A DNA stretch of 64,000 nucleotides, from contig CACWXP010000005.1 in assembly GCA_902764875.1 (NCBI GenBank), positions 62,001-126,000 of the forward strand. Direction: 5' to 3'. The DNA is from an uncultured Eubacteriales bacterium. GTDB lineage: Bacteria > Bacillota > Clostridia > Christensenellales > Aristaeellaceae. The notes under the pieces are model-generated. The model was not told where the DNA came from, did not search any database, and saw nothing but the letters and a program-made list of their open reading frames with translations. A program made the position numbers and the translations under genes. The stretch's first letter is position 1; each line of letters begins with the position of its first letter. Below are positions 10,151 through 16,452 of the stretch, in pieces.

Positions 10151-10597
10151 TTAAATCATGTAGTAATCCCATTCTCCCGACATCTGGTTCCTGCACTCCT
10201 GAACGAACTCGGCGAGCGTCTTGTTTGCCGCGAACCCGTTCAGGAAACCGTTCATTTTCTCCCAGAGTCCGGCGTTCACCGCATTGCGCAGGCTGCGTTC
10301 GTTCCGGTCTCCGGAAGTATTCTGCGGATCCAGGATACTTTTGTCAAGCGCGTTCAGAACATCCGCAATGCTGATCCGGTCCGCCGGCCGGGACAGCGTG
10401 TAGCCGCCCCGCAGTCCTTTCTGGGCGCGGATCAGCCCGGCCTGTTTCAGATGCGTCAGAATCTGTTCCAGGTATTTCTGGGAAATACCCTCTCTTTCCG
10501 CAATGTCCGGCGCGGATACGCTGGTTCCGTTTGCCGCGTACATCGCGATGTCTGTCAGCGCCAGCATTCCGTATTCAACCCTTGTGGATACCTTCAT
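10151..10597 (-). CDS. Rrf2-family transcription regulator (CymR-like, no cluster cysteines)
   Basis: A 148-residue protein with the Rrf2 winged helix: MKVSTRVEYGMLALTDIA, HTH ISQKYLEQILTHLKQAGLI and wing KGLRGGYTLSRP. The three-cysteine cluster loop of IscR (CxxxxxCxxxxxxC, about residues 92-106) is absent; the only cysteine is near the C terminus (VQECRN). It therefore resembles CymR-type cysteine-metabolism repressors rather than Fe-S IscR. It sits inside the sulfur operon, just before the M20 gene (13 bp). The dyads CCTA..TAGG at 14696-14712 and 16428-16452 are its best candidate sites, giving autoregulation and control of iscS-iscU. Confidence 0.92.
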   Translation of the reverse strand: MKVSTRVEYGMLALTDIAMYAANGTSVSAPDIAEREGISQKYLEQILTHLKQAGLIRAQKGLRGGYTLSRPADRISIADVLNALDKSILDPQNTSGDRNERSLRNAVNAGLWEKMNGFLNGFAANKTLAEFVQECRNQMSGEWDYYMI

Positions 10598-10660: not shown

Positions 10661-11374
10661 TCATGATTTCACCCGGTTCCGTACAAACAGCGCTCTGTTG
10701 AACGTCCTCCGCGCCAGCAGATTCCCAAGGCTCTGCAGCAGGAAAGTTACCAGCAGGAGAATGATCACACAGGCGTTGACAATATCCGGATGGTTCTGGT
10801 TCTGTCCGTAGTTGATGGCGAAGGAGCCGATGCCCCCCGCGCCGACCGCCCCGGCCATCGTGGTCAGGCCGATCAGGCTGATCGCCGTCACCGTTGTCAC
10901 GCGGATCAGGTCCGGAACGGCTTCCCGAAGGTAAACCCGGAAAATCAGTCCGGCCGTACCGCTGCCCATGCTCCGGGCCGCTTCGATCTTTCCGGCATCC
11001 ACGCCGCTCAGGGCCACCTCCACCTGCCGGGTGTAGAAAGGCACCGCCCCGAAAACCAGCGGCAAAATCGCGCCTTTGACGTTGATGGCCGTACCGACCA
11101 CCGCCCGTGTCAGCGGAATCAGGAAGATCAGCAGGATGATGAAAGGAATGCTCCGGAAAACGTTGACGACAGCGTTGACAACCTGATAAACCATCAGGTT
11201 CTGCCGGATACCTTCCTTTTTCGTCGCCACCAGCAGCACCCCGAAAAGCAGTCCGATCGCAAAGGCAATCAGCCCCGCTTTCCAGAACATCTCGAACGTT
11301 GCGCTGAAGCTCTTCAGGAATTTGTCCCGATAAGTCCACAGATTAGGCGCCGCCGTTTTGAGGAACTCTTCCAT
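10661..11374 (-). CDS. metI: MetI-type methionine/cysteine ABC permease (first set)
   Basis: A 237-residue inner-membrane permease with five or more helices and the cytoplasmic loop ALSGVDAGKIEAARSMGSGTAGLIFR that contacts the ATPase. The start ATG is preceded by GAGGTG and overlaps the end of the metN-type gene by 32 bases, so the two are translated in a coupled way. It belongs with the ATPase at 11343-12437 and the binding proteins at 12535-14409. Identity with the other MetI in the operon is only moderate by eye. Confidence 0.9.
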   Translation of the reverse strand: MEEFLKTAAPNLWTYRDKFLKSFSATFEMFWKAGLIAFAIGLLFGVLLVATKKEGIRQNLMVYQVVNAVVNVFRSIPFIILLIFLIPLTRAVVGTAINVKGAILPLVFGAVPFYTRQVEVALSGVDAGKIEAARSMGSGTAGLIFRVYLREAVPDLIRVTTVTAISLIGLTTMAGAVGAGGIGSFAINYGQNQNHPDIVNACVIILLLVTFLLQSLGNLLARRTFNRALFVRNRVKS

Positions 11375-12437
11375 CCCGAATCACCTCGCATCTCACATGA
11401 TGTTCCTGCAGATAGGCCATCCCTTTTTCAACGCTCTCCGGTGCTCCGCTGAGAATGCCGACAATGCCGCCCAGCGGTCTTCCCTGAAGGTATTCCGCGT
11501 CCGCGAGCAGCAGGTTCAGATCGATACCGGTTTCCTTGGCCGCGCTGGTCAGCACATGCTCCCCGACGCATTCCTTCTCAAACACCAGCCGGACCAGCAT
11601 CTCGCCTTCCCGGATCTCAGCCAGCTCCGCGTTTTCCCGGATCAGGCTGTCCATCTTCCCCAGCAGCGAGGAAGAGGCCACAAACCGTTTGCTGATCTCC
11701 GCCTTCGGGTTTGAGAAGATGTCGTATACGTTTCCTTCTTCCACGATCCGGCCGTCTTCCATCACGGCCACACGGTCCGCGATCCGCTTGACAACCGCCA
11801 TCTCATGGGTAATCAGCACGATGGTAATCCCCAGCTTCCGGTTCAGTTCCTTCAGCAGCGACAGAATGGATTCCGTCGCCTCCGGATCCAGCGCGCTGGT
11901 GGCTTCGTCCGAAAGCAGAATCGGCGGATTCGCCGCCAGGGCCCGGGCAATGGCCACCCGCTGTTTCTGGCCCCCGGAAAGCTGGGAGGGAAAAACGTTC
12001 GCCTTGTCCGTCAGGGCAACCAGTTCCAGCAGTTCCCAGACCCGCTTCTCGATTTCTTTCCGGTTCCTGCCCGTGTGCTGCAGGGGATAGGCAATATTGT
12101 CAAAAACCGTCAGCCGATCCAGCAGGTTAAACTGCTGGAAGATCATGCCGATGCCTCTGCGCATCGCACTCTGTTCCCGGCCGGTCATTTTTCGGCCGTC
12201 AATCGTCGCCTGTCCGTCCCGCAGAACGACAGCCTTCCCGTCTCCGATCCGGATTTCCCCGGAATCCGGATACTCCAGCAGATTGAGGCAGCGCACAAGG
12301 GTTGATTTACCCGCGCCTGAATACCCGATCACTCCGAAAACGGATCCTTTTTCAACCTTGAACGACACATCGTCAAGCGCCGTCACATCCCCGCTTTTCA
12401 GATGGAATGTCTTGTTCAGATGCCGTACTTCAATCAT
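11343..12437 (-). CDS. metN: MetN-type ABC ATPase with NIL domain (first set)
   Basis: A 364-residue ATPase: Walker A GYSGAGKST, signature LSGGQKQR, Walker B ILLSDEATSALDP, and a C-terminal NIL domain (about 280-355) for feedback by the transported amino acid. It powers the MetI-like permease that overlaps its 3' end. The 97-bp gap before it, after the MetQ gene, holds the hairpin CTTCA.GCCG/CGGC.TGAAG without a T-run. That hairpin could protect the upstream binding-protein mRNA and give more binding protein than transporter. Confidence 0.92.
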   Translation of the reverse strand: MIEVRHLNKTFHLKSGDVTALDDVSFKVEKGSVFGVIGYSGAGKSTLVRCLNLLEYPDSGEIRIGDGKAVVLRDGQATIDGRKMTGREQSAMRRGIGMIFQQFNLLDRLTVFDNIAYPLQHTGRNRKEIEKRVWELLELVALTDKANVFPSQLSGGQKQRVAIARALAANPPILLSDEATSALDPEATESILSLLKELNRKLGITIVLITHEMAVVKRIADRVAVMEDGRIVEEGNVYDIFSNPKAEISKRFVASSSLLGKMDSLIRENAELAEIREGEMLVRLVFEKECVGEHVLTSAAKETGIDLNLLLADAEYLQGRPLGGIVGILSGAPESVEKGMAYLQEHHVRCEVIRDGRVPQNGGA

Positions 12438-12534: not shown

Positions 12535-13440
12535 TTATTCGGCTGCTCCGGCGGCCTCCTTCAGGGCGTCCAGGGAGTCAAACTTCTGGGAATAAAGCGT
12601 CAGCGGAGCAATCAGCGTGTCACCAATGACGGTCAGATCGTATCCGTTGTCGCCCGCGTCCTTGTTCAGGTAGGCCTTGTGCTGGAAGGCGTTCAGGTCG
12701 ATCTCGCCGGCGTTCAGCGCTTCGTTCGGCAGGTTGTAGGCGTCGAATTCCACCAGTTCGATGAAAATCCCCGCGTTCTCTTCATCCAGAACCTTCTGAA
12801 CCGCTTTCCACTGATCGTTGTTCGCGCCGCACACGCCGACCTTGACAACCGTCTTCCCGGCCGCATCGGATGTGTATTCAACGATCTCCTGCGCCTGCTC
12901 CTTCGTCAGCGCAATATTCTCGTCGTAGGGGAAGGCCGGGAAGAAAGCTTCCTCATAATTCACAAGCAGAAACTCAGCCACAGCCTGGGTCTGGTAGGCT
13001 TTCACAATCGTCGCGTAGGTTTCGTTATCCTTGTCCGCTGTCCGGGCCACGATGATGTTCACATAGGGGTTATCCCCGCTCTCGCTCTGTTTCTCAATGA
13101 TCAGGCCGTCCTTCGAAGGAATCAGACCGTAGGGAATCGCATAGGTGCCGTTGATCGTGGAGGCGCCGAAGTCCGACAGCGTGGAGGGCAGGGTGTTTGC
13201 CTGCACCGGAACCACTTCCACGTTGTAAAGATACCCGGTGATGTCCGCAATTTCCGGTGTATATCCCGCCTCCGGATTCACGGTGATCAGTCCCGCGGTC
13301 TCCAGCAGCTTAATGCCTCTGGAAAGGTTTGTTCCGTCGTCAGGAATACCGATCTGAAGGGTGTCCGCCGCAGCCGCGGCCGTTGTCAGAGCCAGTACCA
13401 GCGCCAGTGCCAGCGCGAAAATCTTCTTTGAAAGCTTCAT
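12535..13440 (-). CDS. metQ: MetQ/NlpA-family substrate-binding protein (second)
   Basis: A 301-residue exported binding protein of the NlpA (MetQ) family, with features such as NAGEIDLNAFQHKAYL near the C-terminal half and SASTINGTYAI-like strand motifs. The start is at the ATG with GGAGGG eight bases upstream, opening MKLSKKIFALALALVLAL; an earlier ATG 17 codons upstream has no ribosome site. The signal peptide ends in AAAAAD and carries no lipobox cysteine, unlike usual Gram-positive MetQ lipoproteins. It lies between the other MetQ and the MetN gene; two binding proteins on one transporter widen the substrate range. Confidence 0.9.
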   Translation of the reverse strand: MKLSKKIFALALALVLALTTAAAAADTLQIGIPDDGTNLSRGIKLLETAGLITVNPEAGYTPEIADITGYLYNVEVVPVQANTLPSTLSDFGASTINGTYAIPYGLIPSKDGLIIEKQSESGDNPYVNIIVARTADKDNETYATIVKAYQTQAVAEFLLVNYEEAFFPAFPYDENIALTKEQAQEIVEYTSDAAGKTVVKVGVCGANNDQWKAVQKVLDEENAGIFIELVEFDAYNLPNEALNAGEIDLNAFQHKAYLNKDAGDNGYDLTVIGDTLIAPLTLYSQKFDSLDALKEAAGAAE

Positions 13441-13569
13441 TGGGTTTTCCCTCCTGATAATCATTCTTTTCGTTTTGTTTTTATGTTTCACTCTGCCGGA
13501 AGCAGCCCGCCTTACCGCACCCGGAAGCGCTTTGTCGCCGTGTGCTGCTCCCGGTTCCGGAAAGCCGCC

Positions 13570-14409
13570 TTAGTCTGCCAGATTAGCAAACAGCTCCTCC
13601 GGAATCCACCAGAGACCTCTCCACTCGCCGTCCGGAGCGTTCTCCTTGTCAAGATACTCCTTGAATTCTTTGGAGTGATACGCGTCGACAATCGCCTTGG
13701 CCCAGGGGGCGTCCACATTCTCGGCCTTCACGACCACCTGCAGAATCAGGTGCGGCAGAATGTCTTCGTTCGCCAGCGCGGTGGAACCGTCAATGCCTGC
13801 GTTGTAAACGACGGAGCCGGTGATCGCCGCGTAATCGTAGTCCTGGATGGCCGCGGGAATGGTCAGGCTCTTCTGCTCAATCAGTTCCAGCTCATAGGGG
13901 TTTTCCACCACGTCATCCACCGTGACCGCGGAAATATCCACCTTCTCATCCAGTTTAATCCAGCCGATCTTCTGCAGAATCGCAAGGCACCGCGCCGTGT
14001 TGCTGGCGTCGTTGGGAATCGCAACCGTGAATCCCTTGCCCACTTCGTCCAGGCTCGTGTGGTTCACGGAGTAGATGCCGGCCGGCACTGTCGGAATCAC
14101 GCTGATGGGCGTCAGGTCGCCGTTGTTGTTAGCGTTGAAGTTGTTGGCATAGGCGGTGTGCTGTTCAACATTCACCTGCACCTCGCCCGCCTGCAGCAGC
14201 TGATCCGCCACCAGCAGTTCGGAAGTCTCGACGACTTCAAAGGTGTAGCCCTGTGCTTCGAGGATCGGGATAATCGCTTTCTCAAACAGTTCGGTGTAAG
14301 GTCCCTGGGATTTGGAATACTTGATGTTCGTCCCTTCGCCTTCCGCGAAGGAAGCGGCGGCTGTCAGCAGCAGGGCTGCGGCAAGGAGGATCGCAAAAAT
14401 CTTTTTCAT
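13570..14409 (-). CDS. metQ: MetQ/NlpA-family substrate-binding protein (first)
   Basis: A 279-residue NlpA-family protein: signal peptide MKKIFAILLAAALLLTAAASFA, no lipobox cysteine, then the MetQ fold with EVQVNVEQHTAYANNF and AIPNDASNTARCLAILQKIGWI. AAGGGG lies nine bases upstream. It is the first full gene of the sulfur operon, 109 bases after the cysteine-rich leader peptide and 51 bases after the attenuator-like terminator. Methionine or cystine is the likely ligand from family and context. Confidence 0.92.
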   Translation of the reverse strand: MKKIFAILLAAALLLTAAASFAEGEGTNIKYSKSQGPYTELFEKAIIPILEAQGYTFEVVETSELLVADQLLQAGEVQVNVEQHTAYANNFNANNNGDLTPISVIPTVPAGIYSVNHTSLDEVGKGFTVAIPNDASNTARCLAILQKIGWIKLDEKVDISAVTVDDVVENPYELELIEQKSLTIPAAIQDYDYAAITGSVVYNAGIDGSTALANEDILPHLILQVVVKAENVDAPWAKAIVDAYHSKEFKEYLDKENAPDGEWRGLWWIPEELFANLAD

Positions 14410-14460: not shown

Positions 14461-14492
14461 AAAAAACCGGAAGCTTTTCCTGAAGCTCCCGG
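14461..14492 (-). terminator. Attenuator terminator between leader peptide and metQ
   Basis: On the transcript CCGGGAGCTT (14492-14483), loop CAGGAA, AAGCTTCCGG, then TTTTTT (14466-14461): a 10-bp stem with one G-U pair. It lies before, not after, the structural genes. Its 5' arm overlaps ATGCCCGGGAG (14496-14486), which is perfectly complementary to CTCCCGGGCAT inside the leader ORF (14591-14581), so terminator and antiterminator exclude each other. Confidence 0.85.
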
Positions 14493-14518
14493 GCATGTTC
14501 GTGCAATCGGCTCAAAAA

Positions 14519-14647
14519 TCAGCAACATCGCACCGTCTGGAGGCGCGCAAAGCAATCGCCGGACGCCCCAGTCGCATCATATGCCCGGGAGATCAGCATT
14601 CGACAACACATGCCGCCAGCCAGTTTCTTCGTCTCGTTCCTGAACAT
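14519..14647 (-). CDS. Cysteine-rich leader peptide (42 aa) of the sulfur operon
   Basis: A 42-codon ORF with a very strong ribosome site (AAAGGAGG, eight bases before ATG 14647) that starts about 25 bases after the predicted transcription start. It encodes five cysteines: a Cys-Cys pair at 14-15 within GGMCCRM, Cys32, and a Cys-Cys pair (41-42) just before the stop. No membrane segment or known domain is seen. Codons 19-23 contain the antiterminator strand. Ribosome stalling at codons 14-15 when Cys-tRNA is short would leave that strand free to pair with the terminator's 5' arm, letting transcription reach metQ. A second stem CTGGGGCG/CGCCTCCAG (14564-14571 with 14537-14545) lies within the ORF. 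The mechanism is inferred; the parts are seen. Confidence 0.75.
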   Translation of the reverse strand: MFRNETKKLAGGMCCRMLISRAYDATGASGDCFARLQTVRCC

Positions 14648-14679
14648 TGCCCGTACCTCCTTTCGAATGGATTGACCGA

Positions 14680-14712
14680 AGTATATCACCAATCGCCTAC
14701 TATGTCAATAGG
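14680..14712 (-). promoter_or_regulatory. Promoter and CCTA..TAGG dyad of the sulfur operon
   Basis: TTGACA (14703-14708), a 17-bp spacer and TATACT (14680-14685), giving a start near 14672. The -35 lies inside the imperfect dyad CCTATTGACATAGTAGG (14696-14712). The 11-mer CCTATTGACAT also forms the -35 region of the iscS promoter, which points to a common regulator, probably the Rrf2 protein encoded in this operon. Confidence 0.8.
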
Positions 14713-16419: not shown

Positions 16420-16452
16420 ATCTTATACCTATTCACCCTTAATGTCAATAGG
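16420..16452 (-). promoter_or_regulatory. Promoter and CCTATT/AATAGG dyad of iscS-iscU
   Basis: TTGACA (16443-16448), 17-bp spacer, TAAGAT (16420-16425). The inverted repeat CCTATT...AATAGG (16428-16452) spans the -35 and spacer, and the CCTATTGACAT part is identical to that of the sulfur operon promoter. It is a candidate Rrf2 operator. Confidence 0.75.

Follow-up and report, generated by a model that had tools for sequence, protein, structure and literature searches.

Amino acid and methionine genes of Firmicutes are usually placed under RNA control by T-boxes and riboswitches, the SAM riboswitch among them. In the trp/his-type attenuators of enterics, a ribosome stalled on regulatory codons selects between an antiterminator and a terminator, and it is unusual for attenuators to have a primary sequence in common across families. 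The leader that we describe here resembles the trp/his type in that a stalled ribosome on regulatory codons would choose between antiterminator and terminator; it is unlike that type in having a core whose primary sequence is common to several clostridial families, and in that the 1:2 helix is a candidate only.

Two described systems are specific for cysteine. The uORFC-8-2 motif is a candidate ribosome-mediated cysteine attenuator found before cysS in Rhodobacterales (PMC8632094). According to that report, the motif shares with our leader a short uORF, tandem Cys codons (usually 14-15), an intrinsic terminator and a proposed read-through at low Cys-tRNA, and differs from it in its alphaproteobacterial hosts, its position exclusively before cysS, the dominance of UGC and the location of the Cys codons within the first stem (PMC8632094). 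Compared by description, the clostridial leader stands instead before sulfur uptake and biosynthesis genes, uses UGU, and has a near-invariant CGAAUG and a conserved pairing between two elements, A and B. For mycobacteria and other Actinobacteria, a second report describes leaders whose Cys codons form runs close to the stop and which have no conserved terminator hairpin (PMC1262725); Canestrari et al. 2020 is cited on actinobacterial cysteine leader peptides in PMC13236596. These leaders resemble ours in that cysteine genes are preceded by a short ORF containing Cys codons (PMC1262725), but the clostridial Cys codons lie at the core, together with a terminator and an antiterminator.

Since cysteine attenuators have already been proposed in Rhodobacterales and Actinobacteria, the kind is known, and it is the class, the lineage and the regulon that look new. 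A first-pass annotation of this DNA had spoken of an apparently undescribed type in this lineage; this holds for the clostridial class as far as our literature search reached (no such leader class was found, judged by titles and abstract openings, with few subscription papers covered), but two papers report cysteine attenuators in other phyla (PMC8632094, PMC1262725). Our best reading of the sequence comparisons is that the clostridial leader is a cysteine attenuator of a new ribosome-mediated class, whose transcription is subject to a second control.

The leader upstream of metQ

The window, that is, the whole stretch of 64,000 nucleotides analysed, comes from an uncultured Eubacteriales bacterium (Clostridia). 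Its leader consists of the following parts, all on the minus strand:

14696..14712 (-): imperfect palindrome CCTATTGACATAGTAGG, 17 nt, over the -35 box, 0 mismatches; candidate Rrf2-type operator
14680..14708 (-): promoter TTGACA-17-TATACT, read directly (TTGACA 14708-14703, TATACT 14685-14680)
Upstream of the leader ATG (-): strong Shine-Dalgarno sequence AAAGGAGG, read directly
14519..14647 (-): leader ORF of 42 codons plus stop, MFRNETKKLAGGMCCRMLISRAYDATGASGDCFARLQTVRCC, with its ATG at 14647
Codons 14, 15, 32, 41 and 42 of the leader ORF (-): Cys codons, read directly
14603..14608 (-): TGT TGT = Cys14-Cys15, proposed stall codons, from codon comparison with relatives
14596..14604 (-): core GTCGAATGC, containing the near-invariant CGAATG; possible 5' strand of helix I
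14582..14591 (-): A element CTCCCGGGCA, 5' strand of the antiterminator, from alignment and covariation
14564..14569 (-): 5' strand of helix M, GGGGCG, from covariation
14558..14566 (-): GCGTCCGGC, possible 3' strand of helix I, of which the window leader can form 8 of 9 pairs
14540..14545 (-): 3' strand of helix M, CGCCTC, from covariation
14486..14495 (-): B element TGCCCGGGAG, 3' strand of the antiterminator, overlapping the 5' arm of the terminator, from alignment and covariation
14461..14492 (-): intrinsic terminator, a 10-bp stem (14492-14483 with 14476-14467) followed by T6 (14466-14461)

The promoter, the ribosome site, the 42-codon Cys ORF, the terminator and the 11-nt complementarity reported in the first-pass annotation were all recovered where it had placed them. 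CTCCCGGGCAT (14591-14581), which comprises A and sits within the leader ORF, is perfectly complementary over 11 nt to ATGCCCGGGAG (14496-14486), which comprises B and overlaps the 5' arm of the terminator, a hairpin folded at -16.1 kcal/mol. The window leader forms 11 pairs of A:B, 6 of helix M and one of the five of a short extension helix; folded alone, this single leader gave an uninformative z of -1.05. As an ORF with codons of the pathway's own amino acid, the leader has the frame, the ribosome site and the Cys codons of a cysteine attenuator in its sequence, and its translation is predicted. The same annotation had called the attenuator complete, which goes slightly too far, as the helix (1:2) that would hold the antiterminator back at ample cysteine is a candidate.

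Rfam 15 gave no match at the window leader (the window being searched at the gathering cut-off and the leader at E<=1), and neither the T-box (RF00230) nor the SAM riboswitch (RF00162) matched there; among 10 of the 80 inspected loci described below, none matched at the leader, the sole match being a glycine riboswitch elsewhere in L145. The leader peptide matched nothing in NCBIfam. The T-box has 7 matches in the window's own genome, all under Rfam's cut-off, and the SAM riboswitch is present in 38 of the 45 genomes of the genus.

Recurrence, codons and covariation

The exact 20-base core pattern matches 98 stretches in the GTDB genome collection, where by our own estimate about 0.5 would be expected in random sequence with equal base use. 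The record titles of the 80 matches listed are all clostridial, mostly metagenome-assembled genomes of rumen and gut, and among the matches listed are Lachnospiraceae, Ruminococcaceae, Oscillospiraceae, Christensenella, Eubacterium and Peptococcaceae, as well as a cultured carrier, Clostridium porci WCA-389-WT-23D1. When these 80 loci, selected on the A element alone, were inspected, Cys stood at one of the two codons preceding the core in 79, and B (<=1 mismatch) was found downstream in 75; three of the five loci without B run past the available sequence (L099, L136, L141) and two lack it (L095, which is also without Cys, and L133). With up to 3 mismatches the core pattern matches in 27 of the 45 genomes of the genus, a count that includes at least two spurious loci (L053 and L058, where the pattern falls within the coding sequence of a different gene), against 0 of 45 for the reversed control, which argues that the core is not due to chance. 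A phylum-wide search for the pattern at 1 mismatch matched 5 of 398 genomes, the window's own included, with one of the five spurious.

With a covariance model the leader was detected in 13 of 391 genomes drawn from across the class, in 30 of the 45 genomes of the genus and, in another clostridial family, in 78 of 115 genomes and 2 of 5 genera, with the reservation that such searches evaluate a limited share of the candidates (9 for each genome of the class-wide sample), so that members may be missed. The model found four copies in the window's own genome. On these counts the leader is patchy across the phylum and dense wherever it is present. Rejected candidates were L340, a spurious pattern match, and L003-L005, weak matches besides L002 in a leader-protein search of the own genome that we judged unrelated.

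The comparative counts rest on two alignments. Filtering reduced 101 stretches to 84, by removal of L053 and L058, of L057 (a copy of the window) and L046 (a copy of L071), and of rows without B, with <110 nt upstream, with insufficient downstream sequence or with >97% identity to another; L122, whose frame continues and which has no T run, was left out by judgement, giving the 83-sequence alignment, of which L095 was never part. The covariance model was built from 57 of these 83. The alignment of model-found members has 78 rows, is fitted to the model and so is biased towards its structure; three opposite-strand rows are counted for covariation and helix I and excluded from codon and base counts (n=75).

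Conservation of the Cys codons, on which the first-pass annotation had staked its proposal, was confirmed in both sets. In 83/83 aligned members Cys is encoded by at least one of the two codons that precede CGAATG; the second codon is TGT in 81, although its G and T are mostly set by the search pattern and only its first base lies outside the 20-base core pattern, and the remaining two members have Cys at the first codon. Among model-found members, Cys lies within three codons of the core in 74/75, the exception (L317) being a shifted frame, and the third base of the second Cys codon is T in 68/75. Position by position, CGAATG is retained in 73 to 75 of these 75, a set drawn by a model that itself favours it. 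A ribosome site with at least four matching bases is present in 72/75, and Arg-Met follows Cys in 73/75, while the peptide N-terminal of the Cys codons is highly variable. In 11 genes of the window TGC is used 22 times vs 2 for TGT, and CGA makes up 2 of 146 Arg codons; the core nonetheless uses TGT and CGA.

The end of the leader is often Arg-Cys-stop or Arg-Cys-Cys-stop (18/83, and commonly in the model-found set; 14527-14519 in the window). A stall at these terminal Cys codons would not obviously favour read-through.

Near-perfect A:B pairing in the 83-sequence alignment arises by construction, because its rows were chosen via an A word and a B word; the pairing was tested by the extension and M helices, which were not used for selection, and by the model-found set, itself leaning to the model. 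In the extension and M helices 84.6% of cells are paired, vs 79.0 in shuffled and 37-48 in slid alignments, and 53 two-sided changes are seen vs 20.4 in shuffles, with a two-sided change at 11 of 11 pairs. The strongest covarying column pair of the alignment (49-145) lies within the short extension helix just inside A:B. Over the whole structure, the model-found set (78 rows) has 112 two-sided changes vs 27.0 in shuffles, with such a change at 6 of 10 A:B pairs. The complementarity of A and B is thus kept in relatives through compensatory changes, as in the pairs CTCCCGGACA/TGTCCGGGAG (L283), CTCCCGAGCA/TGTTCGGGAG (L299) and CTCCCAGGC/GCCTGGGAG (L176). The 45 nt from B onward fold with a median of -15.9 kcal/mol over the 83 members, in agreement with an intrinsic terminator ahead of the first gene. 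Covariation supports an antiterminator exclusive with the terminator, and its release by a stalled ribosome is predicted from geometry and folding.

Helix I, in which GTCGAATGC would pair with the GCGTTCGGC region, has 81.9% and 73.1% of its cells paired in the two sets vs 20-40% when slid, and no covariation in either. It is predicted (P>0.5) in 40 of 83 leaders before B is made, in 43 with a ribosome at the stop and, by construction, in none with a ribosome on a Cys codon; in the window it is weakly predicted, with P 0.32 without a ribosome and 0.13 with one at the stop.

One genome bears on what is being conserved. In L169 the leader frame stops directly after CCRMR, within the core, and the downstream helices persist, suggesting that it is the RNA, and not the peptide, for which they are conserved. 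This early stop could be a sequencing error; if it is real, a ribosome terminating right after the Cys codons would itself cover A.

Downstream genes and the promoter palindrome

In the window, nifU and nifS lie upstream of the leader, which is followed by a run of genes encoding, in order, a metQ-like protein, a second MetQ/NlpA protein, metN-like and metI-like proteins, an Rrf2 regulator and an amidohydrolase:

13570..14409 (-): metQ-like substrate-binding protein, the first regulated gene (PF03180, E 1.1e-47)
12535..13443 (-): second MetQ/NlpA family protein, its profile matched in two swapped halves
11343..12437 (-): metN-like ATP-binding protein (best model MetN, below cut-off)
10661..11374 (-): metI-like permease (best model MetI, below cut-off)
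10151..10597 (-): regulator of the Rrf2 family, part of this gene run (TIGR00738 passes its cut-off; the IscR and CymR models do not)

Residues 26-157 of the second protein match the C-terminal half of MetQ profiles and residues 195-298 the N-terminal half; judged by its profile matches the protein is a circular permutation, and matches in relatives show the same order.

Of 9 relatives with an orthologous metQ, the closest alone (L007) carries the leader immediately ahead of that gene; in three of these genomes (L043, L212, L331) the leader is followed by a metN-like gene instead. Of the four copies in the own genome, one each lies ahead of metQ, a gene for an amino acid ABC permease, one for a rhodanese and one resembling metY. 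First downstream ORFs, picked by script with none for 3 of 101 members and a few doubtful (L082, L096), gave 98 proteins: 59 Cys/Met PLP enzymes, 11 NlpA/MetQ proteins, 10 permeases, 5 SBP_bac_3, 2 ABC ATPases, 2 M20 peptidases, 2 iron-containing alcohol dehydrogenases (Fe-ADH), 1 rhodanese and 1 PALP. Most of the 59 resemble O-acetylhomoserine sulfhydrylase, both in a tally of model matches, where models of this superfamily cross-match, and in their N-termini. A second set, partly overlapping the genomes of the first and lacking a downstream ORF for 1 of 58, gave 57: 32 PLP enzymes, 13 NlpA, 4 LysR, 3 ABC, 3 Fe-ADH, 1 SBP_bac_3 and 1 permease. The setting of uORFC-8-2 was not encountered: the records are clostridial, and no aminoacyl-tRNA synthetase family occurs among the 17 and 12 downstream Pfam families of the two sets. 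By these family assignments, the downstream genes are mostly cysteine and methionine genes. The LysR-family regulators (L304, L319, L321, L322) and Fe-ADH genes (L102, L108, L283, L312, L314) that follow some members have no obvious tie to sulfur.

A diverged Cys leader, MKYCWYWLKNIPDVSVRAADRC, with a terminator lies upstream of the own-genome cysK (C21 around 39013; L223, L240), and other shorter Cys leaders, MARCIMRHCRRMQIMRPGVFMRAGVRCC and MSRSRGCMCQ.., precede the cysK genes of L246, L251 and L260. MKYCWYWLKNIPDVSVRAADRC and MARCIMRHCRRMQIMRPGVFMRAGVRCC have terminator-like CCCGG repeats but are without the CGAATG core; these short leaders are perhaps a second class.

The promoters of the members have CCYATTGACATRGTRGG in common over the -35 box: 89 of 101 match it with at most 2 mismatches, whereas none of 2020 upstream sequences shuffled by mononucleotide came closer than 3. 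The remaining 12 keep the leader without the palindrome, and conversely the palindrome is found before relatives' cysK genes without a visible leader. In the own genome it also occurs, without the leader, before a ThiF/TcdA-like gene with 1 mismatch and upstream of nifS with 3 (window 16436-16452), and it lies in the intergenic stretch beside a divergent Rrf2 gene that adjoins the metY leader; the two of these sites outside the window are at C20:10788 and C4:166444. A genome-wide search at 3 mismatches gave 19 matches vs 39 for the reversed control, so that only sites with 0-1 mismatch carry weight alone. The palindrome is perhaps an Rrf2-type operator exerting a second, transcriptional control on the leader promoter, and the regulator encoded at 10151..10597 would then be a candidate for reading it. 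The product of the divergent Rrf2 gene has three clustered Cys. Four members without the palindrome (L101, L118, L119, L179) have, by eye, GTGATAA..TTATCAC-like upstream repeats, perhaps the operator of another regulator.

Ribosome position and the proposed switch

The leading edge of a ribosome lies about 12 nt downstream of its A-site codon. When the second Cys codon occupies that site, the edge would reach 14593, two bases short of A (14591). Partition functions for the transcript up to B, computed with the ribosome at different positions, gave A:B a probability above 0.5 in 81 of 83 leaders when the ribosome sat on the second Cys codon, in 78 when it sat on the codon before, in 67 without a ribosome, in 61 with a ribosome at the stop and, by construction, in none with it over A. 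The corresponding values for the window are 0.81, 0.36, 0.02, 0.53 and 0.00. In these predictions stalling would free A in nearly all leaders, and at equilibrium most would antiterminate by default; since A:B prevails in most leaders even without a ribosome, the off state would need kinetics or ribosomes on A.

We are confident that the leader is a ribosome-mediated transcription attenuator reading charged tRNA-Cys, in keeping with the conserved Cys codons, the compensatory changes and the mostly Cys/Met downstream genes, which support the cysteine-attenuation reading of the first-pass annotation at the level of sequence. The strong start site would drive translation of the leader ORF, and at cysteine shortage the ribosome would halt with a Cys codon (14-15 in the window) in its A site. 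As its front would end just ahead of A, A would be free to pair with B around the nested helix M, to which most relatives would add a further covarying helix; with B bound, the terminator could not form and transcription would enter metQ. At ample cysteine, ribosomes would pass over A, or the GTCGAATGC-GCGTTCGGC helix would fold early and sequester it, or both, leaving B to pair with the 3' arm of the terminator and transcription to stop. The leader would thus very probably let transcription continue only at cysteine shortage. We infer the stalling, the direction of the switch and the manner of holding A back; the ORF, its Cys codons, the antiterminator helices, the terminator, the sulfur regulon and the promoter palindrome recur on comparison.

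A possible extension, which we hold tentatively, is a leader with two inputs, in which, besides stalling on Cys codons, the near-invariant UGU-CGA-AUG core would carry a signal of its own: its rare codons might slow and pace the ribosome, CRM might act through the nascent chain, or a trans-acting factor might bind there. Such a leader would be a new type of attenuator, its stall set by a fixed RNA/peptide word, and an entire cysteine regulon would share it across several clostridial families. The strict conservation of CGAATG, beyond what a plain attenuator requires, and its sharing at the nucleotide level by several families could also point to a metabolite riboswitch or a protein-bound antiterminator, with the core as binding site and the ORF incidental, but we think this unlikely: the ORF is open and nearly always has a ribosome site, Cys adjoins the core almost without exception and is found at the preceding codon where the second is no longer Cys, and no Rfam family matches the leader. 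An arrest of the nascent peptide at C-R-M, sensing cysteine or another sulfur compound and not a hungry codon, could explain why Arg-Met so regularly follows Cys; it is very unlikely, as codons are conserved and not residues alone (TGT, and CGA, though both are rare in the window genes), and the sequence before the Cys codons varies widely. That promoter control through the palindrome alone matters and the leader is a decaying relic is hardly credible, for all the frequency of the palindrome and its presence before cysK genes without a visible leader, given the strong covariation of the leader helices and the members that keep the leader without the palindrome.

Read as a ribosome-mediated cysteine attenuator, the leader would present codon-stalling attenuation as a conserved, countable RNA class in Clostridia of gut and rumen, within the Firmicutes, whose amino acid genes are controlled mainly by T-boxes and riboswitches. 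It would mark a cysteine regulon that takes in Cys/Met PLP genes (metY-like ones among them), metNIQ, ABC genes for amino acids and rhodanese, and would allow cysteine control to be annotated in numerous genomes of uncultured bacteria. Its near-invariant core may offer an unusual handle on the coupling between the ribosome and RNA structure.
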